Assembly (NCBI RefSeq): GCF_900111745.1 | Contig: NZ_FOIJ01000018.1 | Span: 1 to 64,000 of the forward strand | Length of the DNA: 64,000 nucleotides | DNA from: Stigmatella erecta | GTDB taxonomy: Bacteria; Myxococcota; Myxococcia; Myxococcales; Myxococcaceae | Direction of reading: 5' to 3' | Shown here: positions 4,086 to 64,000 of the stretch, piece by piece | Layout of the letters: every line of letters starts with the position of its first letter | Position numbering within the stretch: the first letter of the stretch is position 1 | The notes under the pieces: generated by a model | Told to the model about the DNA's origin: nothing | The model's input: only the letters and a program-made list of their open reading frames with translations | The model's database searches: none | Program-made: the position numbers and the translations under genes

Positions 4086-5519
4086 ATGCGGTGCTGGGCG
4101 ATTGTCCTGCTGTTCGCGTTCCTCTCAGGATGCAGCGCCGCAATGAAGGGCGTCGTCCGCTTGGACACAGGCCAGGGCGAGCCCATCGTCCACACTCCGG
4201 GCCGCGACGTGGAGCCGGCGGCGGTGAGCGAAAAGGAATTCAAGAAGGCCATCGCGCAACATGCCCCCACTGTGTCTGTGGTGGAGCGGCCTCTGGAGCA
4301 CGCCAGGCAGCTGTTTGGAGTGCCCGAGCGAAGCGGCTGGTACAGGTACGAGAGGAGGGGCCAGCGCCTCATTGCTTCGGAGCCGGGGAGTACCAGGAAC
4401 CTACGCTTGTTACCCGAGGACGAGGAGCTCAAGCGCCGCTACCTGCTGTGGTGCGAGCACACGTGGGGAGGCGGAGATTGCCTGCGCCTGCTGGTAGACA
4501 AGCCCTTCCTGGATGGCGATGCCAAATACGCGCTCGCCATGGCGATTGCTCACAGCAAAGTACTGGGGGCCATGAAGGAGGAACTTGCCCGGATGGTGAG
4601 CCCTCAGGCGGTGGTAGCCACAGTGGTGGGCGGCCTGACCATGTATGCCATTCTGCTCGCACTACCCGAACCGGTGAGTAAGGGCATCGCCGCGCTGATG
4701 ACGCTGGGGGCCGTGGCGTACCTGGGCTGGGACACGGTGTGGCGCCTGATCGACGGGTGGCTGGTGCTGATGAAGGAAGTGGATAAGGCCACCACCTTCG
4801 ACGGCCTCTACTCCTCCGGAGAGAAGTTCGGGGACACGATGGGAGAGAAGGCGGCCCGAGCCTTCGTCATGCTGGGCACGGTGGCCCTGGGGAATACGGC
4901 TTCGGGGATGGCGGCGACGCTGCCGAAGTTGCCGGGAGCCGGGCAGGCGGCGGTGGTGGCCGAGACGCAGCTGAACATCCGCTTCACGGCCCCTGCTCTG
5001 GCTCAGGTGGAATCGGTTGCCATCAGTGCCGAGGGCGGCACTATCGCGTTGGCCCCCAACGCAGTCGCCATGACAGCGCGCGGCAGCTCAGGCGGCAAGG
5101 CTGGCGCGAAGGCTGCGCCGCCCAGCTCGGGTGGCCCGGGGCAATGGTTCAAGGCGAAAGAGGGCATGCCCGAGCAGGCGCGCCGCTATCAGGCGCAGGT
5201 GACGGGCGCCCCCGAAGGCTATGTCTACCGCGTCGAGCAGGGTGGTAAGTACGTGAAATTCGACGGCTTCGACCAGGGGGTTCTGATCGAAACCAAGGCC
5301 ACCGGCTACGCGCAGTGGATCAATAAGAAGCTGGAGTTTTTCGGAAACTTTCAGGGGCGCGACCAGATGCTTGATCAGGCGCAGCGCCAAGTCACAGCCG
5401 CCAATGGAACGCCCATCCGGTGGATCGTCGCCGAAGAGAAACTCGCGGGTGCGCTCAGGAAGATGTTCACGAACGAGCAACTCCCGATTGAGGTCATCCA
5501 TATTCCCGCAGCTCCGTAA
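4086..5519 (+). CDS. SitA-like polymorphic toxin lipoprotein with Tox-REase-5-like C-terminus
   Basis: A 477-residue lipoprotein. The type II signal peptide MRCWAIVLLFAFLSGC gives a lipid-anchored Cys. The middle (about residues 90-290) has a Cys-containing segment (LWCEHTWGGGDCLRLLV), then two hydrophobic helical stretches near ALPEPVSKGIAALMTLGAVA. This layout matches, from memory, SitA5-type toxins passed between myxobacteria by outer-membrane exchange. A Gly/Ala/Pro-rich linker leads to a C-terminal domain of about 110 residues (GYVYRVEQGGKYVKFDGFDQ ... LIETKATGYAQW ... IRWIVAEEK) with the restriction-endonuclease-fold pattern D-x(n)-ETK of Tox-REase-5. The ATG at 4086 is chosen because AGGAGG lies six bases upstream and it begins the signal peptide. 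An immunity-like gene follows 14 bases later. Nuclease activity and transfer route are inferred. Confidence 0.7.
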   Translation: MRCWAIVLLFAFLSGCSAAMKGVVRLDTGQGEPIVHTPGRDVEPAAVSEKEFKKAIAQHAPTVSVVERPLEHARQLFGVPERSGWYRYERRGQRLIASEPGSTRNLRLLPEDEELKRRYLLWCEHTWGGGDCLRLLVDKPFLDGDAKYALAMAIAHSKVLGAMKEELARMVSPQAVVATVVGGLTMYAILLALPEPVSKGIAALMTLGAVAYLGWDTVWRLIDGWLVLMKEVDKATTFDGLYSSGEKFGDTMGEKAARAFVMLGTVALGNTASGMAATLPKLPGAGQAAVVAETQLNIRFTAPALAQVESVAISAEGGTIALAPNAVAMTARGSSGGKAGAKAAPPSSGGPGQWFKAKEGMPEQARRYQAQVTGAPEGYVYRVEQGGKYVKFDGFDQGVLIETKATGYAQWINKKLEFFGNFQGRDQMLDQAQRQVTAANGTPIRWIVAEEKLAGALRKMFTNEQLPIEVIHIPAAP

Positions 5520-5533
5520 GGAGTAGCCGCTCG

Positions 5534-6256
5534 ATGACAGAGACCTATTATGCTGGCTCCTATTGGCTGGCCCGGCCCGAATCCGCCGAGGCTTGCGCAC
5601 GACGCGCGGGGCGTTTCTTCCGCAGCCTGGGGCGCTGCGACCCGGCGTGGAACCGCTGGTATCAGCCGGCTCGCTCCTTCGAGGAGGCTCGCAAACGCCC
5701 ATTCACGACAGATGAAACGAGCTTCCAGAAGCTGTTCGCACATGAGAAGCATCAGATCTTTGACGGTGTCAAGTTCCGGTTGTGGACGGGTGACAACCAG
5801 GAGGAAACGTCCTCCGCCGGAGGATCGTGCGGTTCATCCTCCCTCCAGCTTCCATCCAACTGCGTGCTTGAACCCTTCGATGAAGGTCTTGTCGGGGAAC
5901 GGATCCTGACCGCTCCCATCATGGCCGAGGTGTTGCGCACCATGGCCATAGCCTGGGACCCGGAGTGGGGAGTGGCTACCTCGCACCAGCACTTGGAGAC
6001 GGCGGTGAAGGGGTTCCCGTACGCAGGCACCTTCGTGGGCTGGGTGATGTACTTCTCGCGGCTTCGCGGCACGGTGCCCCCGCTGCCTGCGCCCGTGCGT
6101 ATTGCACCCGTGGAGGATAAAGGCACCCTCGTCATCCTTACCCCCGAGAGGTTCACCGCCGCCAATCCGGAGCACGTCGCGCTGGCCGCACGTGTCCACG
6201 AGTTGCTGGACCGAGCTGGGCTGCTACGGCCGTTGCAGCCCTGGCCGACAGGTTGA
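5534..6256 (+). CDS. Imm52-like immunity protein, cognate to the upstream toxin
   Basis: A 240-residue soluble protein with no signal peptide, consistent with a cytoplasmic immunity factor. The N-terminus (TETYYAGSYWLARPESAEAC, then RRAGRFFRSLGRCDPAWNRW) follows the pattern I associate with Imm52. This family is commonly paired with Tox-REase-5 toxins. The gene begins 14 bases after the toxin stop, with AAGGAG overlapping the toxin stop codon, so the two are almost certainly co-transcribed. A mid-protein Ser/Gly/Cys-rich loop (SSAGGSCGSSS) is probably variable. The operon position is direct evidence; the family name is from memory and neutralisation is inferred. Confidence 0.7.
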   Translation: MTETYYAGSYWLARPESAEACARRAGRFFRSLGRCDPAWNRWYQPARSFEEARKRPFTTDETSFQKLFAHEKHQIFDGVKFRLWTGDNQEETSSAGGSCGSSSLQLPSNCVLEPFDEGLVGERILTAPIMAEVLRTMAIAWDPEWGVATSHQHLETAVKGFPYAGTFVGWVMYFSRLRGTVPPLPAPVRIAPVEDKGTLVILTPERFTAANPEHVALAARVHELLDRAGLLRPLQPWPTG

Positions 6257-50222: not shown

Positions 50223-50257
50223 AACATGTGCTCCCCTGAACTCCGGGAGCACATGTT
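50223..50257. terminator. Bidirectional terminator between convergent genes
   Basis: A perfect 13-bp inverted repeat (AACATGTGCTCCC / GGGAGCACATGTT) with a 9-base loop, followed by ATTTTAT on the plus strand. The minus strand has GTTTTTGCG further on. The right arm overlaps the stop codon of the subtilase gene (50256-50258). It terminates the golvesin-domain gene and probably the subtilase gene too. Confidence 0.8.
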
Positions 50258-53039
50258 ATTTTATCACGCAGAGAACGCCCTCTCGGGAGCGCCCGCATAC
50301 GTCGGCACGGCCATCGCCATTGAGGTCTCGGAAACGGAGAGTCTTCCAATAGGAAGGATCGGCGTTCCAACCAGCCAAGTTACTGTAGGCGTTCGTCCAG
50401 TAATAGGGGGCACTGAAGGAGGAGCCGGTGGACAGGGAGCAGAAGAGGCCTTCCGACGAGCGCCCACAGACATCCGCGAGGCCATCACCGTTGAGGTCCG
50501 GGTACTGGAGGGTTTCCCAGTAGTAATTGGCGGAGGACCAGCCATCCGCGTTGCTGTAAGCGCGTGTCCAGTAATAGGGGGCACTGAAGGAGGAGCCGGT
50601 GGACAGGGAGCAGAAGAGGCCTTCCGACGAGCGCCCACACACATCTGCGAGGCCATCACCGTTGAGGTCCGGGTACTGGAGAGTCTCCCAGTAGTAGTTG
50701 GCCGAGGCCCAGCCATCCGCGTTGCTGTAAGCGCGTGTCCAGTAGTGGGGGGCACTGAAGGAGGAGCCGGTGGACAAGGCGCAGAAGAGGCCTTCCGACG
50801 AACGCCCACAGACATCCGCGAGGCCATCACCGTTGAGGTCCGGGTACTGGAGGGTTTCCCAGTAGTAGTTGGCGGAGGACCAGCCATCCGCGTTGCTGTA
50901 AGCGCGTGTCCAGTAGTGGGGGGCACTGAAGGAGGAGCCGGTGGACAGGGAGCAGAAGAGGCCTTCCGACGAGCGCCCACACACATCTGCGAGGCCATCA
51001 CCGTTGAGGTCCGGGTACTGGAGAGTCTCCCAGTAGTAGTTGGCCGAGGCCCAGCCATCCGCGTTGCTGTAAGCGCGTGTCCAGTAGTGGGGGGCACTGA
51101 AGGAGGAGCCGGTGGACAAGGCGCAGAAGAGGCCTTCCGACGAACGCCCACAGACATCCGCGAGGCCATCACCGTTGAGGTCCGGGTACTGGAGAGTTTC
51201 CCAGTAGTAGTTGGCGGAGGACCAGCCAGCCACATTGTTGTAATTCCGCGTCCAGTAGGAGGGAACGCTGAAGGAAGAGCCGGTGGACAAGGCGCAGTAG
51301 AGGCCATCCGACGCACGACCGCAGACATCCGCGAGGCCATCACCGTTGAGGTCCGGGTACTGGAGAGTCTCCCAGTAGTAGCTGGCGGAGGACCAGCCAG
51401 CCAGGTCGCTGTAAGAGCCCGCCCAAATGGAGCCATCCATATCCAAGATCACGGACAGTGCTCGTCTCAGATCGGGCAGTGGTCCGATGCGTCGTGAATC
51501 CGCATTCTGTGAGGTGCCCGTTTGGCCAAGCAATTGCCGCATCGTCTGTGGGCTCAAGGCGGGTCGGCTGCGGGCAAGCACGGCTCCTTGGATACTTGCC
51601 ACCGCGCCCACAACCACGGGCGAGGCACTAGAAGTACCGCTAAAGGATGACGTGTACCATTGGTTCTCGTCGCCTGGGTTGAACCGGTCGCCATAACCCA
51701 GTGTCGTCACGGACTGTCCCCAGCCATGCAGGTCAATGCGGCTTCCATGGTTGGTCCAGCAGGTAGGCTCGCGGATGTCTCCTGCACTCGCGCCCACCAT
51801 GATGGCGCCTGAGTCGCGCACTGCCCGGTTGAAGGCGTTGCCATAGGCAGAGTCATCTAAGTTCGAACTGCCGTTGCCGCCAGCCTCCACTATTATGACG
51901 CCGTTGGCCGTAGCTGTAGCAATGGCATCGAAGTTGGCTTGCCAGTATTCCATGGGGATGAAATCGCACTGGCGTGGATTGCAGGTACACGGCGTGCCAT
52001 TGGCCGGGCCTTGGGCGTGCAATTCAAGCAGCACGATGCCTCCTCGGCCCACGGCGGTGGCCGCACGGCTGAGCGCGCTCGCGGTGCTCTGCGCACCAAT
52101 GCTCTCGTAACCGACGGAAGCCGCATGGGCGATGCCCGTGACACCATATGTATTGGCAGCGCCTACCATTACCCCTAATACCGCCGTGCCATGGTTGCGC
52201 CACGTGATGTCGCTGTATTGGGTCCCATTGGCGTGGAACAGCGAGGGCATGTCCTCGTGAGGAGTGCGCCAAGCGCCCTCCACATCCACGATACGCACGC
52301 CCGCCCCATTGCCGCCCGGCACCGTCCAACCGTAGCGCGCGTCGATGCCCGCTGGCGCGGCATTGAGGTAGCCCTGCTCAGCTACGAAGGATGGCGTCAA
52401 GGGCGCAAGGTCGGCTGTGGACAGCAGGCCGCGCAGGGGCTCATTTTGCCCAAACCCCACCGAGGCAGGCTCGGCGAATGGTTGACTATAGGCAGTCTCG
52501 ATGCCAGCGAGGGCATTAAGGCGGGAAGTGAGGACTTTGGTATCGGCTGCGGTTGTGCCGGGTCGCAGCGGCAGTTCGAAGTAGAGCGAAAGGTCCGCCA
52601 ACTCACGGCCGCCACTCATCTCGCCCGAGCGTTTGCGCGCCTCAAGTGTGGCCTCATCCTCGCGGAACAGCCGGAGTACACCATCTGACGCCAACTCGCT
52701 GTGGGTGAGCAGGGTGTGTGCGATGACAACATCCTCTTCAAGCCGTTTCGCATCGAGCCTCAGCCGTGCCAACTGCGCCTGCTCGCGGGTGCCCCGCTCT
52801 TGGGCCAGCACAGTCAGTCGTCCACCGCGAAGGCGCACCCGGCTGCCCTCGTGGAATTTCACCACGAGACGCTCCACCGGGGTTGCTGCGGGCAGCGTGG
52901 CCTCATCAGTGGGGTCTGGAACTCGCGGGGTAAAGGATGAAGCTGTTTGCGCCCCGGCAGGTACTGACAGGAGTATGCTCCACCCTACTAGCAAACCTCG
53001 TACTCCAACCCATACTTGCTTGCGTGCTGTTGCGTCCAT
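50256..53039 (-). CDS. Secreted subtilisin-like (S8) protease with FG-GAP/VCBS-type repeats
   Basis: 927 residues. Signal peptide LVGWSILLSVPAGA, then a pro-region of about 180 residues. The S8 domain has its Asp in GVRIVDVEGAW, His in WRNHGTAVLGVM, oxyanion Asn in EAGGNGSS and Ser in SGTSSASPVVVGA, so the triad is complete. The C-terminus holds six tandem 57-residue repeats plus one diverged seventh, each with YYWETLQYPDLNGDGLADVC, a calcium-binding DxNxDG loop typical of FG-GAP/VCBS repeats. The start at 53039 opens the signal peptide. Lower GC in the protease part than in flanking genes. The gene is flanked by direct repeats of golvesin-domain sequence. Confidence 0.9.
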   Translation of the reverse strand: MDATARKQVWVGVRGLLVGWSILLSVPAGAQTASSFTPRVPDPTDEATLPAATPVERLVVKFHEGSRVRLRGGRLTVLAQERGTREQAQLARLRLDAKRLEEDVVIAHTLLTHSELASDGVLRLFREDEATLEARKRSGEMSGGRELADLSLYFELPLRPGTTAADTKVLTSRLNALAGIETAYSQPFAEPASVGFGQNEPLRGLLSTADLAPLTPSFVAEQGYLNAAPAGIDARYGWTVPGGNGAGVRIVDVEGAWRTPHEDMPSLFHANGTQYSDITWRNHGTAVLGVMVGAANTYGVTGIAHAASVGYESIGAQSTASALSRAATAVGRGGIVLLELHAQGPANGTPCTCNPRQCDFIPMEYWQANFDAIATATANGVIIVEAGGNGSSNLDDSAYGNAFNRAVRDSGAIMVGASAGDIREPTCWTNHGSRIDLHGWGQSVTTLGYGDRFNPGDENQWYTSSFSGTSSASPVVVGAVASIQGAVLARSRPALSPQTMRQLLGQTGTSQNADSRRIGPLPDLRRALSVILDMDGSIWAGSYSDLAGWSSASYYWETLQYPDLNGDGLADVCGRASDGLYCALSTGSSFSVPSYWTRNYNNVAGWSSANYYWETLQYPDLNGDGLADVCGRSSEGLFCALSTGSSFSAPHYWTRAYSNADGWASANYYWETLQYPDLNGDGLADVCGRSSEGLFCSLSTGSSFSAPHYWTRAYSNADGWSSANYYWETLQYPDLNGDGLADVCGRSSEGLFCALSTGSSFSAPHYWTRAYSNADGWASANYYWETLQYPDLNGDGLADVCGRSSEGLFCSLSTGSSFSAPYYWTRAYSNADGWSSANYYWETLQYPDLNGDGLADVCGRSSEGLFCSLSTGSSFSAPYYWTNAYSNLAGWNADPSYWKTLRFRDLNGDGRADVCGRSREGVLCVIK
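50373..51398 (-). repeat. Six 171-bp tandem repeats inside the subtilase gene
   Basis: Six copies of exactly 171 bases encode the FG-GAP-type units. Copies alternate between two versions (WSS/WAS and SLSTG/ALSTG variants), so the 342-bp pair is itself duplicated nearly perfectly. For example the segment near 50679 recurs at 51021. Confidence 0.92.
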
Positions 53040-53450
53040 CACGAGTTGTGCTCCCAATTGGCAATATGGCTTCGACAGCATAGTGCTGGAGGGGAGCCGT
53101 ACTCAAAAGCTGGCACGCGAAGCGGTGGCATCGCACCCGCAGCCCTTGCTGCGCTGGCCGGACCCTCAGGAGAGCCCGGCATTACGGCTCAAGGAGTGGT
53201 GGCCTCGCCGCCTTGCGTGAGGCGCTGCGAGGCGTTGAGAAGACGCTGGCTTGTGAAAAGAAGAGGTTCCAGTAGCTCATCGTGAACGCGGCGGGCTGGA
53301 ACAAGGTCCAGTTGAGCCGCTGGGTGACCGCGGGCACCTCCGTCGTCGTGGACGCCATCCAGGTCCGGTAGCGCCCGGACGAATTTGACTCGGAGTGCGT
53401 TCTCCTGCACCAATTCAGGGAAGTCCATTTTCACCAAGGCGAGGTGTTTC
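53040..53450. other. Intergenic region with a golvesin-domain remnant
   Basis: 411 bases between the divergent subtilase and M23 peptidase genes. Apart from the gene fragment at 53277-53374, listed separately, I see no gene, promoter consensus or hairpin. Confidence 0.45.
53277..53374 (+). pseudogene. Fragment of the golvesin-domain gene 3' end
   Basis: TCATCGTGAACGCG joins directly to GGGCTGGAACAAGGTCCAG and runs to the stop codon and GTAGCGC, nearly matching 50024-50043 plus 50121-50205. The intervening 84 bases are missing, as if deleted between two AGCGGGC repeats. It has no start codon of its own. Confidence 0.8.
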
Positions 53451-54887: not shown

Positions 54888-55625
54888 TCCGAGGTTGCCG
54901 CTGGCCTGCATGGGTTAGCAGCCCAAGTGGCTGCATTGATTGATGACGCATCCGGTGGGCAGCTTTGAAGACGCGTCTCTGCGTGCCTTATCGCATCCAC
55001 CAATTGGGTTCTGCCTTCATCACTGTTCCAGGGTCAGATTCGCTGCTGTTGGTGTTGCCCGGTAGCTGGTGAGTCAAAGAACTGAATGCGGAGAGAGCGT
55101 CGCAGTCGATGGTGAGAGGGGAGGCTCTTCTTTACGCTTCCACCGAGAAAGAGCTGAAAACCGCTTTCGCTGCTATTTCGGCCATGCCAGCTAAGTCAAG
55201 AGAAGAAAGTTCTGTCCAAGGCTCCATCACGCAGGCCGCGAAATCGAGTTCCGCCGAATGCGCCCTACCCGCCCTTACATTCAGCAACTACGGCTGTGAG
55301 TGCCGCCATATGCACTTCAACCACTGATAGCTAAATGAACAGTTCCCATCGTAGCTGCTTCGACTTTTAGAAGAGGCTAAAAAAGCAGAGTCCTCCATGC
55401 GACAGACGCGTGATGATGCTCGCTGACTCGAAGCGATTGAAGACGTACAGCACGTAACCTCTCGCGCGTGTAAGTGGCAGAGAGTGGGAGTGGCATATTG
55501 CTGAGCCTGGAGGCAGCATCTCTTGTGGTGATGGCCGGAATGGGCGTTCTGGTTGGTCAAGATAAACAGGTGGTGCTGGGTGTAGGCATACATGGCATCT
55601 CGGCGGTCGTTCATGGAAGGTGGCG
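54888..55625. other. Intergenic region, AT-richer, no supported gene
   Basis: 738 bases. Short frames on both strands (for example 55109-55327 plus, 55288-55644 minus) lack ribosome-binding sites and protein-like composition. An imperfect hairpin CTTTTAG ... CTAAAAAAG lies near 55361-55382. The composition becomes AT-richer toward the RCC1-repeat gene. Confidence 0.4.
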
Positions 55626-58184
55626 ATGATGAAAAGGCTAACAATTTGGAGACTTCAAGTCCTCTGGGCCGCAGTATTGGCGGCAGGCGCTTTCGGTTGT
55701 ACTGACTTCGAACAAGAAAGAACCGCCTTCTGCCAACGGAACCCTGAACGCTGTGATGCAGAGGGGGGATACGTTCCGCCTGAAGATACGACAGCGCCTA
55801 TCATTATCGAGGGTTCTCAATCCGAAACGGCCTTGCAAGTGCAGGGAACTGTCACCTTCAGTGTGACAGCTCGGGATGAGGAGACGCCCAAGCTCGATTT
55901 TCTGTGGGCAGCGAGTATGGGTACAATGGGGGTTGCCTCTAATACAAATACCACCAGTACTCTTGCTTGGACTTCGCCTTCATGTGTCCCTGCAGGAACT
56001 GTTGCCTCAGTCTCAGTCACAGTTGGTAATGGCGGCAAGGCTACGGCATCCAAGACCTTTACCGTTACTGCGAATATATGCCCGAAGCCCACTGTCGCCG
56101 CAGGAGCTGCCCATGCAATGGTGCTGCACAGTGATGGCACTGCCTGGGGGTGGGGCGACAATCGCTCTGGCCAACTTGGTGATGGGGAGTTCACGCAGAG
56201 GGGCAAGCCAATGCGGGTGCCGAGTCTGACAAGCGTTAACGCTTTGGCCGCAGGCGATTCTCACTCTGTGGCATTGCGCAGCGATGGCACCGTCTGGGCT
56301 TGGGGGGGGAACAAAGCCGGTCAGCTCGGAGATAAGACGGCCACCGATCGGTCAAGGCCAATGCAAGTTTCTGGATTGGCGGATGTGGCTGCCTTGGCGT
56401 CTGGCCATGAGCATGTCTTGGCGTTGCGCAAGGATGGTACCCTGTGGTCTTGGGGAGGGAACAGGTACGGACAGCTTGGGGACGGAACTAAGAGCAATAG
56501 GTTTGAGCCGGTACAGGTGTCTGGTCTGACAGGCATCATTGCTATAGCTGCAAGCGGTTTTCATTCTTTGGCGTTGCGCGGTGATGGTACCGTCTGGTCT
56601 TGGGGGTATAATCAGTTTGGTCAGCTCGGTGATGGAACGACAAGTAACAGTGCAATGCCAGTGCTTGTGTCTGGGCTGGCAGGGGTGGCTGCTGTAGCGG
56701 CAGGTTATGAGCACTCGTTGGCGCTGCGCGGCGATGGGACTGTCTGGGCTTGGGGAAATAATGAACATGGCCGGCTTGGAGATGGAACAGAGACCAGAAG
56801 GGTGTTGCCGGTACAAGTTCCCAGACTAAATGGAATCACCGCTTTAGCGGGAGGGATGGCGCACTCGTTGGCATTGCGCAACGATGGCACGGTCTGGGTC
56901 TGGGGAGGCAATGATGCTGGTCAACTCGGTGATGGAACAGCTATTGGAAAAGTATCGCCAGTGCCGGTGTCCGGGTTGGCAAGTGTCACGGCGTTGACCG
57001 CCGGCCGTGATTACTCGGTGGTGATGCGTGGTGATGGTACTGTCTGGGCCTGGGGGGCCAAGCGTAACGGTCAACTCGGAAATGGGGAGACTACCCTGCG
57101 GGCCAGCCCTGTTCAGTCAATAGGGTTGACGAGCGTCATTGCTGTGGCTGCAGGCTACAACCAGTCCTTGGCCTTGCGTAACGATGGTGTGGTCTGGGCA
57201 TGGGGCGACAATCGTTTTAAGCAACTCGGAGATGGAGCGGACGTAAGGCGATCAACACCAGCGCCAGTTCCCGGGCTGACAAGTATCACTGCCTTGGCTT
57301 CAGGCACTTATCACTCAATGGCGCTGCGCAACAATGGCAGTGTTTTGGCGTGGGGTAACAATTATCACGGGCAGCTTGGGGATGGGACGACCGTCAATCG
57401 GGAAAATCCTGTTCAGTTAGTGGAGCCGAGGGGTGTCGTCGCCTTGGCCGCAGGCGAGAACCATTCGTTGGCGCTGCGCAATGATGGCATTGTCTGGGCT
57501 TGGGGTAACAATTATTTCGGACAGTTGGGGGACGGGACGAGTACTGGGAGGGAAATTCCGGTGCAAGTGCTGGGTCTGACAGGCGTTACTGCCTTGGCCG
57601 CAGGCCGCTCCCACTCATTGGCACTGCGCAGTGACGGCACTGTCTGGGCTTGGGGATTAAATGCCTATGGTGCATTGGGAAATGGGTCAACTACCGAGCA
57701 GGATACTCCGGTTCAAGTCCAGGGTTTGACAAATGTCACAGCCATCGCTTCGGGGGCCTTCCACTCGTTGGCTGTGCGTAATGATGGATCGGTCTGGGCT
57801 TGGGGGAGCAACGGGTACGGCCAACTCGGAGATGGCACTACCATCAACCGGCTGATTCCTGTACGTGCAGTAAGATTAACAGGCGTGACCGCCCTGACAG
57901 GGGGGTATTTTCATTCTGTGGCGTTGCGCAATGATGCGACTGGCCAAGCGTGGGGTAACAACAGCATCGGCCAGCTTGGAGACGGGACCATTGTCGATCG
58001 ATTAGAGCCAGGTGTGCCAGTATTGGGGTTGACGGGCATTACCGCCTTGGTTGCAGGCGACCACCACGCGGTGGCGATACGCAGCGATCGCACTGTTTGG
58101 AGTTGGGGTGACAATGAGTTCGGGCAGATCGGCGATGGGATCTCTCCTGTGGCGCTAGTACCGGTTAAGACTCTGTTCCCGTGA
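55626..58184 (+). CDS. RCC1-repeat lipoprotein
   Basis: 852 residues. The signal peptide ends AAVLAAGAFGC (lipobox). Residues about 55-145 form an Ig-like domain (GTVTFSVTARDEETPKLDFL). Fourteen RCC1-type repeats of about 51 residues fill the rest, each with LALRNDGTVWAWGxN and GQLGDGT; these fold as two seven-bladed propellers. GGAAGG lies five bases before the ATG at 55626. Base composition is lower in GC than the surroundings, while the repeats are diverged in DNA sequence. Extracellular binding role presumed. Confidence 0.88.
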   Translation: MMKRLTIWRLQVLWAAVLAAGAFGCTDFEQERTAFCQRNPERCDAEGGYVPPEDTTAPIIIEGSQSETALQVQGTVTFSVTARDEETPKLDFLWAASMGTMGVASNTNTTSTLAWTSPSCVPAGTVASVSVTVGNGGKATASKTFTVTANICPKPTVAAGAAHAMVLHSDGTAWGWGDNRSGQLGDGEFTQRGKPMRVPSLTSVNALAAGDSHSVALRSDGTVWAWGGNKAGQLGDKTATDRSRPMQVSGLADVAALASGHEHVLALRKDGTLWSWGGNRYGQLGDGTKSNRFEPVQVSGLTGIIAIAASGFHSLALRGDGTVWSWGYNQFGQLGDGTTSNSAMPVLVSGLAGVAAVAAGYEHSLALRGDGTVWAWGNNEHGRLGDGTETRRVLPVQVPRLNGITALAGGMAHSLALRNDGTVWVWGGNDAGQLGDGTAIGKVSPVPVSGLASVTALTAGRDYSVVMRGDGTVWAWGAKRNGQLGNGETTLRASPVQSIGLTSVIAVAAGYNQSLALRNDGVVWAWGDNRFKQLGDGADVRRSTPAPVPGLTSITALASGTYHSMALRNNGSVLAWGNNYHGQLGDGTTVNRENPVQLVEPRGVVALAAGENHSLALRNDGIVWAWGNNYFGQLGDGTSTGREIPVQVLGLTGVTALAAGRSHSLALRSDGTVWAWGLNAYGALGNGSTTEQDTPVQVQGLTNVTAIASGAFHSLAVRNDGSVWAWGSNGYGQLGDGTTINRLIPVRAVRLTGVTALTGGYFHSVALRNDATGQAWGNNSIGQLGDGTIVDRLEPGVPVLGLTGITALVAGDHHAVAIRSDRTVWSWGDNEFGQIGDGISPVALVPVKTLFP

Positions 58185-58456: not shown

Positions 58457-59461
58457 CTAAGGGGCGTAGGCGATGTTCCACTGGGCGTAGGCCTCCTTGT
58501 TGGGATCCGTGGCGTGCACGGTGACAGTGTTGGCCTGCGAGGCGCCCGGCGAGCAGCTGTTGCAGCGGGCCGCGTACTTGCCGGTGTCGGACTCGAGGGC
58601 CCACTTGCCGTTGTTGAGCAGCACGGGCTTGAACTGGGCATAGGCCGCGGCCGGGTCATCCACGTGGACGGCCAGGGTGTCGGGCTGCTTGGAGCCCACG
58701 ATGCAGCCATTGCAGCGGGCCACGTACTTGCCGTTGTCCGACTTGAGGGCGATCTTCCCGCCGCCCATCTCCCTCACCTCGAACTGGTCATAGGTCTCCG
58801 TGGGCGTCTTGACGTGGACGGTGACGGTGTCGGGGACCTTGTTGTCCACGGTCTTCTGGCAGCCATTGCAGCGCGCGAAGTACAGGCCCGTGTCCGCCTG
58901 GAGGGAGATCTTCTGGCCCTTGGGGAAGAGGGGCGTGATGGCCCACTGCGCGAAGGCCTCCTTGTTGGGATCCGTGGCGTGCACGGTGACGGTGTTGGGC
59001 TGCGCGGCGCCCGGCGAGCAGCCATTGCAGCGCGCCAGGTACTTGCCAGTGTCCGCCTTGAGCGCGTACTTGCCATTGGCCAGCCGCTCGATCGTGAACT
59101 GGGCATAGGACTCGGACGCGCTGTCCGCATGCACCGTCACGAAGTCCGGCTTGGCGCCACCCACGATGCAGCCATTGCAGCGGGCCACGAACTTGCCGTT
59201 GTCCGACTTCAACGCCACCTTCCCATTGCCCACGAGCACCAGCTCGAACTGGGAGTAGGCCCCGGTGGCATCCTTGGCGTGGGTGGTGACGGTGTCGGGG
59301 ATCTTGTTGTCCACGGTCTTCTGGCAGCCATTGCAGCGCGAGAAGTAGGTTCCCTCATCCGACTGCAGCGTGATCTTCAGCCCCGCGGCCTCGCTGGCCC
59401 CCGGAAGCAACACGCACATCGCCACCAGGCTCAATGCCCACTTCGTCAGTCCTGCGGTCAT
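58457..59461 (-). CDS. Secreted double beta-trefoil (fascin-like) protein with six CNGC-type motifs
   Basis: 334 residues. Signal peptide about 1-25 (LSLVAMCVLLPGASEA). Six repeats of about 51 residues follow, arranged as two triplets A-B-C-A-B-C, each triplet predicting one fascin-like beta-trefoil. Each repeat has the core ALKSDNGKYVARCNGC, ending in RCNGC (CNSC in the last), then TVTVHATDP and YAQF-type strands. The A-B-C order and near-identity of A with A' show duplication of a whole trefoil. AAGGAG lies before the ATG at 59461. Fascin-like trefoils bind glycans or protein surfaces; the CxxC pairs may form disulphides or bind metal. A related trefoil is fused to the LodA-like enzyme nearby. 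Confidence 0.83.
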   Translation of the reverse strand: MTAGLTKWALSLVAMCVLLPGASEAAGLKITLQSDEGTYFSRCNGCQKTVDNKIPDTVTTHAKDATGAYSQFELVLVGNGKVALKSDNGKFVARCNGCIVGGAKPDFVTVHADSASESYAQFTIERLANGKYALKADTGKYLARCNGCSPGAAQPNTVTVHATDPNKEAFAQWAITPLFPKGQKISLQADTGLYFARCNGCQKTVDNKVPDTVTVHVKTPTETYDQFEVREMGGGKIALKSDNGKYVARCNGCIVGSKQPDTLAVHVDDPAAAYAQFKPVLLNNGKWALESDTGKYAARCNSCSPGASQANTVTVHATDPNKEAYAQWNIAYAP

Positions 59462-59696: not shown

Positions 59697-60860
59697 ATGA
59701 CGACCGGCCCTCTCTCCAGTTCCGCGGACGCCCCGTCCGCTCCCATTCCCGAGGCGCGAAGCCCGCAGGCCTCCTATGCCGTGGTGGTGGTGGGAGGCGG
59801 TGTGGCGGGCTTGAGCGCCGCGCTGACCTTGGTCCGGGCAGGCGTGTCCGTCTGTGTGCTGGAGCGCACCGATTATTCCACCTGGCGCCCCGGGGAGACG
59901 CTCTCCCCGGTGGCGTACGCCGAGCTGCTGCAACTGCTGGCGCCCGAGCCCCTGGAGACGGAGGGTTTCCTGGTCTCCCACGGCCTGGAGGCCACCTGGG
60001 GGTCGGAACAGCCGCACCACCACTCCTTTCTCACCAATCCCTACGGCAGCGGCTGGCATGTGGAGCGTCGGCACCTGGACGCGCTGTTGGCCCGGCATGC
60101 CCAGGCGCACCAGGTGCCCCTGTGGCAAGGAACCTGTCTCACCCACCTGGAGCGGGAGGGGGCGGGGTGGCGGCTCCAGGTCAACACCCCTCAGGGGCCG
60201 TGCGAGGTGCGCTGCGAGGCGTTGGTGGATGCGACGGGGCGCTCGGCGCAGGTGGCGCGCCACTGTGGGGTGCGGCGCCTGAACTGGGATGCGCTGTGCA
60301 GCGTGTCGGCCATCGTGGACCGGCCCCTGGCCCTCCTGGAGCAATCCCTGGTGGTGGAGGCCACGCGCTGGGGCTGGTGGTACGCCGCGCCGCTGCCCCA
60401 GGGACGCTTCATCCTCACCCTGATGAGCGACGTGGATGTGCTGGAGCGCCAGGGCTGCTGGAAGCCGGAGGGGTGGAGCGCGCTCTTCTCGGCCACCCAG
60501 CACCTGGCCCCCCGGGTGGGCGCCCTGCCCGAAGTGAAGCGGCTGTACGTGCGCCGCTGCGAGACAAGCTGCCTGGAGCGCGCGGCGGGGGAGAACTGGG
60601 CCGCCGTGGGGGACGCCGCGGCGATGTGGGATCCACTCTCGTCGAGCGGTATCCTCAAGGGCTTGCGCACCGGACGCGAGGCCGCGCAGGCCCTGTGTGC
60701 CGCGCTGGGGGGAGACGGAGCGGCGCTGAAGCACTACGCCCAGCAGCGGGACGCGGAGTTCTTCCGCTACCTCTCCTCGCGCCGGGCCCATTATGCGCAG
60801 GAGCAGCGCTGGGCCCGGGAAGACTTCTGGCGCCGCCGGCTGAGCGCTGCCTATGTGTGA
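59697..60860 (+). CDS. LodB-like FAD-dependent oxidoreductase (CTQ maturation flavoprotein)
   Basis: 387 residues. The Rossmann motif is VVVVGGGVAGLSAALTLVRA, with FAD contacts in RPGETLSPVA, ALVDATGRSA and AAVGDAAAMWDPLSSSGI. This pattern is shared by tryptophan-halogenase-like flavoproteins and LodB. The Lys of halogenase catalysis (KxxxW region) is not evident. LodB-type proteins are needed to build the cysteine tryptophylquinone of LodA-type oxidases. The LodA-like gene ends 36 bases away on the opposite strand, which supports this role. AGGAGG lies six bases before the ATG at 59697. In Marinomonas the two genes are co-directional; here they converge. Confidence 0.75.
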   Translation: MTTGPLSSSADAPSAPIPEARSPQASYAVVVVGGGVAGLSAALTLVRAGVSVCVLERTDYSTWRPGETLSPVAYAELLQLLAPEPLETEGFLVSHGLEATWGSEQPHHHSFLTNPYGSGWHVERRHLDALLARHAQAHQVPLWQGTCLTHLEREGAGWRLQVNTPQGPCEVRCEALVDATGRSAQVARHCGVRRLNWDALCSVSAIVDRPLALLEQSLVVEATRWGWWYAAPLPQGRFILTLMSDVDVLERQGCWKPEGWSALFSATQHLAPRVGALPEVKRLYVRRCETSCLERAAGENWAAVGDAAAMWDPLSSSGILKGLRTGREAAQALCAALGGDGAALKHYAQQRDAEFFRYLSSRRAHYAQEQRWAREDFWRRRLSAAYV

Positions 60861-60896: not shown

Positions 60897-63146
60897 CTAG
60901 GCCGGGCGGGACTCCAGGATCTCGGCCTGCCAGAGGTTGCCGATGCCCTCGCCCCAGGTCGTCACGCCGGAGGCCGAGTCGGGCCGGTGCAGGCAGTCGC
61001 CCCTGGAGGACTTCAGGATGACCTGGCCGTTGAGCAGCTCGAGGATCCACTCACTGGCGGCCCCCACGGCGCCGGTGGTGACCCCTTGAGGGGTCTCGGC
61101 CCGCAGCAGGTAGTCGCCCTTCCACGACTTCAGCCGGAGCTTGTTCTCGCTCACCCACTCGACGGACCACTCCGTGCCCTTGCCCTCGCCCAGCGTGGTG
61201 ACTCCCGAGGCCGCGTCGGGCCGGTGCAGGTAGTCGGTCTTCCATGACTTCAGCTTGATCTTCGTCGCGTAGCGCAGGTTCGAGCCCGGGGTGGGCGCAG
61301 GGCTGCGCTCCTGGGTCTCGAAGTGCAGCTCGCCCTCGCTGATGACGAAGCCGAGCTGGGGCCAGTTCTTCTGCATCTGGACGTACATGGCCAGGTCGAT
61401 GGCGGGCACGTCCTCGGTCGCGATGCTCTGGAACTGCGGCTTCTTCGCCTCGGTCTCGGCCACCGCGTCCAGCGCGCGCGTCCAGGGCACGAGCTGGAAG
61501 TCTCCCTTCTTCGCGTAGACGTCATCCGGCCGGTGAGCGGACCACCACATGTGGTACATGCCCTCGCCCTCGTAGGCGTGCCCCTTGGGCGGGAAGAGCT
61601 GCTTCTTGCACTGGTAGAAGTCCGCCTGCCAGGGCAGCGCCATCTGCTGGGAGAAGAACCCCGGGCCGATGGGAAGCTTGGCCGTGCCAGGGAAGGCCAC
61701 CCCCGAGTGCTTCACCCGGAAGGGCGCCGCGTACAGCTCGGGCCGGCGCACCATCCAGCTGCAGTCGATGCCCGGGAAGAAGGGGCCGCCCACGCAGTTC
61801 TCCAGCGCGGCCCGGTCCAAGCCCTCGGCGGTGATGGCCGGATCAATCGCCCGGGCCGCCGCCTCGTTCCAGTCCTCCTCGAACGCCCCCTCGGACCACC
61901 GCTTGAGCAGCGCGTACTGCACGTGCGTGAGGGTCATGAAGTAGCCCGGCCGGGGCCCCTCCGTGTCCGAGTAGTTGTCGCCCAGCCCCTTGGGCATCAG
62001 CAGGGGCTCGACGGTGGTGCTGGACGGGTCGCGCAGGTAATTGAAGATGGTCTTGCGCAGGCGCTTGCCCTTGGAGGAACTCAGCGAGCCCAGATCCCCT
62101 TCCGCGCCCGCGAAGCTTCCATGGAACGCCTTGGAGGCCTCGGGGTTGTGGACCTGGCGGTGCTGCAGGGCGCGGTCCAGAATGGGGAAGATCTCCTGCC
62201 GGAAGGAGGGCAGGTACGTCTTGAAGGACTTGGATGCCTCATCCCAGTCCTTGCGCTGCTTGGCGAGCCGGGAGAACAGGCCCTGGGCGAACAGGCCGTC
62301 GGTGTCGAACAGCGGCACCTCGGGGAAGCGCACCGCCACATCCCACAGCGTGTCGATGAGGCGGATGACGTTGCTCGCCGAGGGCGCGAAGTCCGGCGGG
62401 CCCACCAGCAGCCAGGCCCCGGTGGCCCCCTCCAGCACCGCCTTCTGGGTCTTCCCGGCCTCGGTGTAGGTGACCTCGGCGCTCACGGGGCCGTCCGACA
62501 TGTCATCGAACCAGAAGTCGTTGTTCACGTAGTTGTCGATGAGCTTGCCCTGCGGAAGCTTCTCGGCGCGTCCCAGGCCGCCCAGCACGAGCAGGTTTCC
62601 GTTCTCGTCCGTGCGCAGCTCGCCCAGGGTGGGGATGGGAATGTGGCTCTTGGTGTGGGTGAGGGGCACGGGGGGCTGGCTGCGGCCGGAGACCGTCTTG
62701 GGCCCCGGGTCGATGACGAGCTGGCGCTCGCGCTCGGCGGCACCCTGGACATGGGCGTTGCGCAGGTTGACCCGCGGCTTGCCCTCCTCGGGCTCCGCGC
62801 CCTTCCAGATGCCGTCCACGCCGTCCTGGCCGTCGAAGGTGAAGAAGGCCGCCTTGCGGTTGGCCAGGTGGACCTTCCACTGGATGCTGACAACGCCATT
62901 CGTGCCCGCCGTCACCTCGCGCACGGGCACGATCGTGCCGTTCTTCTGCTCGTACTCGAAGATGCGGAAGCGGGCCGCCTGCCGCTTGATGCGGCCCTGG
63001 CTGTCCTTGAACGGCCTGAACTTCTTCTGGGCGATGTCGAAGTTGGGGGGCTCCCCGGGGTGCTCGGGGCCCATGAAGAACTCATCGGGGGAGTTGCCCA
63101 CGCGGGCAACGCCCACGGCGGGGTGGATTCTGAAGAACTTGGGCAT
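60897..63146 (-). CDS. LodA-family CTQ amine/amino-acid oxidase fused to a fascin-like beta-trefoil
   Basis: 749 residues, no signal peptide. The N-terminus KFFRIHPAVGVARVGNSPDE is the LodA/GoxA signature. Candidate quinone-forming residues are Cys451 (ENCVGGPFFPGI), with Cys462 as an alternative, and Trp506 (ALPWQADFYQC). In Marinomonas LodA, Cys and Trp 65 residues apart form cysteine tryptophylquinone; here the gap is 55. GMYHMWWSAHRPDDVY and QKNWPQLGFV are other family blocks. Residues 627-745 are three beta-trefoil repeats (KIKLKSWKTDYLHRPDAASG, KLRLKSWKGDYLLRAETPQG, VILKSSRGDCLHRPDSASG), absent from LodA itself. It lies 17 bases downstream of a di-heme cytochrome gene. Substrate unknown. 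Confidence 0.85.
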   Translation of the reverse strand: MPKFFRIHPAVGVARVGNSPDEFFMGPEHPGEPPNFDIAQKKFRPFKDSQGRIKRQAARFRIFEYEQKNGTIVPVREVTAGTNGVVSIQWKVHLANRKAAFFTFDGQDGVDGIWKGAEPEEGKPRVNLRNAHVQGAAERERQLVIDPGPKTVSGRSQPPVPLTHTKSHIPIPTLGELRTDENGNLLVLGGLGRAEKLPQGKLIDNYVNNDFWFDDMSDGPVSAEVTYTEAGKTQKAVLEGATGAWLLVGPPDFAPSASNVIRLIDTLWDVAVRFPEVPLFDTDGLFAQGLFSRLAKQRKDWDEASKSFKTYLPSFRQEIFPILDRALQHRQVHNPEASKAFHGSFAGAEGDLGSLSSSKGKRLRKTIFNYLRDPSSTTVEPLLMPKGLGDNYSDTEGPRPGYFMTLTHVQYALLKRWSEGAFEEDWNEAAARAIDPAITAEGLDRAALENCVGGPFFPGIDCSWMVRRPELYAAPFRVKHSGVAFPGTAKLPIGPGFFSQQMALPWQADFYQCKKQLFPPKGHAYEGEGMYHMWWSAHRPDDVYAKKGDFQLVPWTRALDAVAETEAKKPQFQSIATEDVPAIDLAMYVQMQKNWPQLGFVISEGELHFETQERSPAPTPGSNLRYATKIKLKSWKTDYLHRPDAASGVTTLGEGKGTEWSVEWVSENKLRLKSWKGDYLLRAETPQGVTTGAVGAASEWILELLNGQVILKSSRGDCLHRPDSASGVTTWGEGIGNLWQAEILESRPA

Positions 63147-63163: not shown

Positions 63164-64000
63164 TTAGTGGGTCTGGTCGTAAAGCTTTTCAACGAGTTCC
63201 AGCAGGCGCTGCTTGTCCTTGGCGGGCATCTCCCGGTCAGCGGGCATCCGGAAGCCGAGGATTTTTTGCTGTGTGGGATTGGGGTCCACGCGGTCGAGGA
63301 TGGGGCTGCTCTGATCCGCGACCATGTCCTTGCTGTAGAGGTCGAAGCGGATGGCGCCGTGGCAGCGGTAGCAATACTTGTTCATCAGCCCCAGCAGCTC
63401 CCGGTCCTCGGCGTTGGTGGTCCAGTTCAGGGGGCCATTGGTGGGCTTGCGGTCCTTCTTGAGCGGGTGGCCGGTGTTGAAGAAGGAGATGGAGCGCTTG
63501 ACGAGGTCCGGCTCCGGCGCGGCCGACGTCTTGTGCAGCTCCAGCCACTTCTGGGTGGCGGCCAGGTGGAAGGCGCCCGGGTTCGTCCGCTGCTGCGTGG
63601 TGGCGATCTCCTGGTTCAGCCGGCGCAGGATGTTGAAGGCCGCCACGTACTGCGGGCTCTTCGGATCCTTGCCCGCGTCGAAGAGCGGTGCGGGGGCATC
63701 GGGCTTGGCCAGGGCGGGGAAGTCTCCGTCCGTGAGCCGGTCCATCCAGTGGTCCGTGTCCAGGTGGTTGAGCACGGCATTGCCACGCAGCGAGCCATGG
63801 CAGGTGTCACACCCGTTGGGGACGAAGTAGGGGGCCTGGCCGTTGCCGGGCAGGGAGCCCGCATCGAAGAAGGCGTCGAGCTGGTAGGAGAGCTTGGAGC
63901 CCTTGTCCGAGGCGCCGAAGTCCAGCCAGTAGATGCTGTTGAGCGTCAGCTCCTTGCAGGTGGGGTTGGAGGCCGGGCAATGGGTGACGAGCGCCACCTG
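63164..64000 (-). CDS. c-type cytochrome with two CxxCH sites, partial (N-terminus beyond window)
   Basis: At least 278 residues of the C-terminal part; the frame runs off the window end. Two haem-binding sites are seen, CDTCHG and CYRCHG, about 130 residues apart. Possible distal Met ligands include FRMPADREMPAKDK near the C-terminus. The region between has a cytochrome-like helical character (DTDHWMDRLTDGDFPALAKP). Only 17 bases separate it from the LodA-like gene, so they are one operon, and the cytochrome is the likely electron acceptor for the quinone enzyme. Its signal peptide, expected upstream, is outside the window. Confidence 0.8.
   Translation of the reverse strand, partial: QVALVTHCPASNPTCKELTLNSIYWLDFGASDKGSKLSYQLDAFFDAGSLPGNGQAPYFVPNGCDTCHGSLRGNAVLNHLDTDHWMDRLTDGDFPALAKPDAPAPLFDAGKDPKSPQYVAAFNILRRLNQEIATTQQRTNPGAFHLAATQKWLELHKTSAAPEPDLVKRSISFFNTGHPLKKDRKPTNGPLNWTTNAEDRELLGLMNKYCYRCHGAIRFDLYSKDMVADQSSPILDRVDPNPTQQKILGFRMPADREMPAKDKQRLLELVEKLYDQTH

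Follow-up and report, generated by a model that had tools for sequence, protein, structure and literature searches.

The stretch of DNA analysed here, a window of 64,000 nucleotides, encodes a LodA-family protein that ends in a beta-trefoil, a domain arrangement that is new to this known family. The residues of the cysteine-tryptophylquinone (CTQ) cofactor are conserved in the predicted protein, the gene of a diheme cytochrome is exclusively paired with the LodA subclade to which it belongs, and the same type of trefoil is found on either of the two partners. The features are as follows.

58457..59461, minus strand: secreted-looking protein of 334 residues, two ARCxxC-type trefoils with 6 repeats (sequence comparison)
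59697..60860, plus strand: LodB/GoxB-like flavoprotein maturase (NCBIfam maturase_LodB, 1.1e-73)
60897..63146 (stop included), minus strand: 749-residue CTQ protein of the LodA family, trefoil at its C-terminus (reading of the open frame)
60906..61262, minus strand: beta-trefoil, residues ~629-747, with repeats 629-668, 669-708 and 709-747 of the LKSWK.DYLHRPD..GVTT type (repeat HMM, AlphaFold2, Foldseek, VIA)
61263..61301, minus strand: linker, residues ~616-628 (end point of unfused orthologues)
61302..63146, minus strand: catalytic LodA-like region, residues 1-615 (Pfam LodA_N/LodA_C)
61608-61610 and 61542-61544, minus strand: codons of the CTQ residues Cys513 and Trp535 (homologue alignment)
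63164..64000, minus strand: C-terminal portion of the partner, containing two CXXCH heme-c motifs, whose gene extends to about 65203 of the contig (L044:7165-9204; gene reading, profile)

The LodA-family protein and its C-terminal trefoil

The open reading frame from 63146 to 60897 on the minus strand codes for 749 residues without internal stops. Its identification as a quinone enzyme in a preliminary description held up. The Pfam models LodA_N (9e-64, 215.8 bits, cut-off 26.3) and LodA_C (5e-33, 114.4 bits, cut-off 25) were passed, and C513 and W535, which correspond to C516 and W581 of LodA, were invariant in 18 aligned homologues. By this alignment both CTQ residues are retained. The equivalog models for the LodA lysine oxidase proper (NF038172) and the GoxA glycine oxidase proper (NF038173) yielded 267.4 bits at a cut-off of 600 and 219.8 bits at a cut-off of 750, respectively. 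Because both scores are far below the cut-offs, neither activity can be transferred to the 749-residue protein. Judged from its sequence it is a CTQ enzyme of the LodA/GoxA family, but neither LodA nor GoxA proper. A signal peptide was not visible by eye on the window LodA; GoxA carries a twin-arginine signal (PMC3948610).

The maturase gene had maturase_LodB as its top NCBIfam match, under the equivalog cut-off, and its product scored 163.6 bits with the QhpG model. It is convergent with lodA in the window genome and in G003, and is located 3' of lodA in the same direction in most relatives. A scan for promoters and terminators gave no signal above chance. Elsewhere in the window we noted by eye a 941-residue protein containing consecutive, almost identical repeats of the type YWETLQYPDLNGDGLADVCGR (50256-53081) and an 854-residue protein with many RCC1-like repeats (55620-58184).

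The claim that the C-terminus consists of three repeats forming a full trefoil was examined with a repeat HMM built solely from non-LodA repeats. It scored the three repeats with 57.8, 46.7 and 57.7 bits, while the best score in 1000 shuffles of the LodA C-terminus was 10.5 bits. AlphaFold2, a structure prediction of the kind proposed beforehand, returned a 12-strand trefoil for the last 127 residues with a mean pLDDT of 90.4 and a pTM of 0.87; two of the five models were in the range of 86 to 90 and three at about 51. The trefoil was modelled alone, without the catalytic part, because trefoil-only rows were misaligned in the alignment of full-length LodA. Foldseek and VIA-align matched the model to Symfoil designs, fascin, FRG1, HA33 and CBM92-B. 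Comparison with the CBM92-B structure 7zoh gave a Z of 18.2, with 118 residues superposed at 1.8 A; the highest Z of all VIA comparisons was 19.0. Taken together, the repeat scores, the model and the fold matches confirm a predicted full beta-trefoil of three repeats with four strands each.

The label fascin-like, on the other hand, fits loosely. Closely related repeats in other proteins pass the Pfam Fascin model (PF06268) with 28.0 and 32.1 bits at a cut-off of 23.1, whereas the LodA trefoil had no match to this model and, as an isolated domain, reached DUF569 (PF04601) with 21.6, i.e. below the gathering score of 23. Among solved structures the single trefoil sequence had no match, and the trefoil alignment had hisactophilin as its sole match at 0.016. 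The second repeat is degenerate in the LodA trefoils. An L[HN]RP[DNA] motif follows the second strand in 43 of 57 LKSW repeats of other proteins, yet in 8 of 18 of those in LodA.

The diheme cytochrome and the placement of trefoils

The gene directly upstream of lodA, separated by 17 bases, encodes a protein of 679 residues with a signal-peptide-like start and two CXXCH motifs (CDTCH and CYRCH), both of which are invariant in the partner proteins. An ARCxxC-type trefoil and the signal-peptide-like N-terminus are encoded past the end of the window. A profile of the cytochrome core, built without the trefoils, detected 18 loci in 195 Myxococcota genomes. The core adjoined lodA at 17 of the 18, i.e. 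at 17 of 17 assessable myxobacterial loci; the remaining locus (G009) is split over two contigs, the ends of which are compatible with the same arrangement. The pair is also present in Verrucomicrobia and Acidobacteria, and most LodA loci examined are without a dedicated diheme partner. In these neighbourhoods the cytochrome is the exclusive neighbour of one LodA subclade. Because the pair was found free of trefoils in Polyangium and in a Verrucomicrobia, a Bryobacterales and an Archangium bin, the pairing is probably older than the trefoils. AlphaFold2 models of the cytochrome core were poor outside the trefoils (mean pLDDT 59), and comparison of the core with solved structures gave no confident relative. 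We also considered a twin-arginine signal on the cytochrome carrying LodA along and dropped the idea, as the RR, inspected by eye, is not kept in all members.

The 334-residue protein with two trefoils matches the trefoil in the partner cytochrome with 57% over 157 residues, and these two proteins are the only carriers of the ARCxxC trefoil in the window genome. Among the neighbourhoods read, the free double-trefoil protein adjoins the operon only there and in G003. The preliminary description had named this neighbour as a possible docking site of LodA. By sequence it is a loose relative of the trefoil inside the upstream diheme cytochrome, and the cytochrome itself, which is mostly encoded past the window end, is likely the better candidate for a partner.

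The placement of trefoils was counted in 21 readable operons, and the counts follow clades rather than independent events. Six loci including the window carry the ARCxxC trefoil on the cytochrome and the LKSW trefoil on LodA (type A). The five loci of type B, with G009 read from two contigs, have the ARCxxC trefoil on the cytochrome and a bare LodA. Type C (4 loci) has two LKSW trefoils on the cytochrome and none on LodA, type D (1 locus) a cytochrome with one LKSW and one ARCxxC trefoil, and type E (5 loci) is devoid of trefoils. Thus the LKSW trefoil is located on LodA in 6 operons and on the cytochrome in 5, is absent from 10 and was on both partners in none. The ARCxxC trefoil is, of the two partners, confined to the cytochrome.

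The six LodA-trefoil fusions all belong to Myxococcaceae, and the LodA genes sampled contained no others. LKSW repeats were present on none of at least 80 LodA loci of other genomes, and a trefoil is absent from the additions listed in a 2015 survey of the family (PMC4417212, Table 3). The fusion is therefore as rare as had been supposed, and the extension is limited to one Myxococcaceae subclade instead of being shared by ordinary LodA proteins. The open-licence literature gave no match for a trefoil-bearing or a myxobacterial LodA. Additions to LodA in other genomes were heme-oxygenase-like, VWA, ferritin-like, and multicopper plus galactose-oxidase-like. Examples are a Variovorax open frame of 1506 residues that joins a multicopper oxidase, a galactose-oxidase-like part and LodA (L110:1971-6488), and a LodA protein with an N-terminal ferritin-like domain in a Calothrix bin (L146:455-3355). 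Of the 195 Myxococcota genomes, 16, all of a single family, contained LKSW trefoils; besides LodA and the cytochrome, the carriers include secreted-looking proteins built from one or two trefoils. In one further protein a Vps62-like domain is joined to an LKSW trefoil (L053:7777-10143), and in a secreted-looking one the trefoil is followed by a C-terminal region of about 90 residues with Cys and Trp (L177:1411-2160).

In the LodA tree four type B loci are nested inside type A with good support, and the fifth, G009, falls in with types C and D, which belong to a sister clade. The four nested bare LodA proteins stop in the same linker as the fused forms, and no trefoil remnant was found 3' of their genes. 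Because these unfused operons branch from within the fused group and share the end point in the linker, the tree suggests one gain of the trefoil on LodA and one loss. Three separate gains are less likely for the same reasons. The trefoil is dispensable, in that one nested clade dropped the domain and kept the enzyme. The trefoils of LodA group together as a clade in an unrooted trefoil tree (100/99), separately from those of the cytochromes and of the free proteins. Because of this separate clade, the same operon probably captured the LKSW trefoil twice, once for each partner; a direct transfer between LodA and the cytochrome is not favoured by the tree, unrooted as it is.

Near the linker, DNA identity between G033 and G013 rises from about 84% to 92-96%, and L047 near 5500-5650 resembles the window lineage upstream and is 92-96% identical to G013 downstream. 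Hence a recombination breakpoint near the LodA/trefoil linker, i.e. at the domain border, is likely for this pair. For informative pairs dN/dS was about 0.4-0.6 in the trefoil and 0.23-0.44 in the catalytic part, with values that are rough owing to base composition. All six LodA trefoils have kept an open frame of three repeats at identities down to 58%.

Possible roles of the trefoil

We propose, and consider the chances about even, that the trefoil is a non-catalytic binding module that places the LodA-cytochrome redox pair at an external ligand. LodB would mature the quinone of LodA, and LodA would oxidise an amine or amino acid. The quinone may then hand electrons to the hemes of the cytochrome, alongside or in place of oxygen. 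LodA and the cytochrome would form a physical complex outside the cytoplasm, which the trefoil would tether to the ligand; a matrix polysaccharide, or one on another cell, is the most likely candidate. The placement of the LKSW trefoil on either partner, never on both, suggests that it localises the pair rather than taking part in the chemistry.

Docking on a glycan had been put forward in the preliminary description, and as far as the fold model goes this is plausible. CBM92 domains bind beta-glucans via the Trp and Glu of a WExF motif (PMC11039641). An alignment of the cytochromes, in which both trefoil types are mixed, matched CBM92 (7zoi) at 9.5e-6 through the trefoil region. The WExF motif that marks the subdomain ends of CBM92 was absent from the LKSW repeats, which end in G.G..W.V. 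In an alignment made by eye the conserved Trp of these repeats is located at the Phe of WExF, and the Trp-Glu pair is missing. From the modelled fold, a sugar ligand for the LKSW trefoil is possible. The LodA trefoils may have fewer binding sites and may be weak binders, because the L[HN]RP[DNA] motif is less frequent in them than in other proteins and because they evolve faster than the catalytic part.

A wider reading, which we hold tentatively, is that a CTQ enzyme of the LodA type, coupled to a dedicated diheme cytochrome, constitutes an amine or amino-acid dehydrogenase instead of a peroxide-making oxidase, arisen independently of quinohemoprotein amine dehydrogenase (QHNDH), with exchangeable trefoils on either partner setting the site of work. 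In QHNDH a CTQ subunit is likewise served by a diheme subunit (PMC7876137). The protein could also be an ordinary secreted LodA-type oxidase that releases H2O2 against prey or competitors and is held on their surfaces by the trefoil, the cytochrome only finishing the cofactor or acting as a peroxidase. Anchoring is common to this and to the binding-module proposal; the chemistry differs. Myxobacteria are predators, which would suit such an enzyme. LodA-type proteins that have been characterised produce peroxide and are antimicrobial (PMC4699246), and quinone cofactors are completed by the diheme protein MauG and perhaps by the diheme subunit of QHNDH (PMC7876137). Yet the equivalog scores of the window protein, 267 against 600 and 220 against 750, set it apart from LodA and GoxA, and most of the LodA loci seen lack a dedicated diheme partner. 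We therefore regard a peroxide-making oxidase as somewhat unlikely.

The presence of three kinds of trefoil protein at one locus in the window would also be explained if the trefoil bound protein, be it the cytochrome, its trefoil or the free double-trefoil neighbour, and thereby assembled the redox complex. Trefoils such as fascin and FGF are known protein-binding folds, and the occurrence of the LKSW trefoil on one partner or the other agrees with this idea as well. However, the LodA-cytochrome pair is kept in operons without any trefoil and stayed intact in the nested clade that lost the LodA trefoil, which argues that the pairing does not depend on it, and the free ARCxxC protein adjoins only two of the operons read. 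Protein docking thus appears unlikely to us. Still less probable is a decaying or neutral appendage, fused by chance and being lost without a role. The elevated dN/dS of the trefoil, its clean loss in one clade and the degenerate second repeat are what such decay would leave behind, but the ratio is below 1, six copies retain the complete trefoil, and the same module was apparently captured a second time, on the cytochrome. The binding module remains the reading that we prefer.

Comparison with known systems

The trefoil adds to the few kinds of domain that LodA-family enzymes are known to carry as fusions. A larger lead is the LodA subclade with its exclusive two-heme partner, which may matter more than the trefoil; that one type of trefoil occurs on LodA or on the cytochrome predicts that the two proteins act together.

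With LodA (lysine epsilon-oxidase, PDB 2YMW and 3WEU) and GoxA (glycine oxidase) the window protein shares the family, the CTQ residues and the adjacent LodB-type gene. It differs from them by its low equivalog scores, the trefoil, the upstream diheme cytochrome and the absence of a visible signal peptide. The LodA fusions of the 2015 survey (PMC4417212) likewise have an added domain, yet these are catalase-like, PF14518 and VWA only. The CBM92 or bacterial fascin-like domains (7ZOH, 7ZOI; PMC11039641) resemble the LodA trefoil as beta-trefoils appended to an enzyme; there the enzyme is a glycoside hydrolase and the domain has WExF, while here a quinone redox enzyme carries a trefoil without it.

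QHNDH combines a CTQ protein, a two-heme c-type protein and a flavoprotein maturase, a set that is predicted here from the genes. The neighbours read were LodB, the cytochrome and the trefoil protein, and among them were neither a small QhpC-type CTQ subunit nor the radical SAM and protease maturation genes of QHNDH. The CTQ subunit of QHNDH is the 9-kDa QhpC, in contrast to the LodA-type CTQ half in the window. Should electrons pass between the two proteins, some members of a family known as peroxide-making oxidases would be dehydrogenases and a convergent counterpart of QHNDH.
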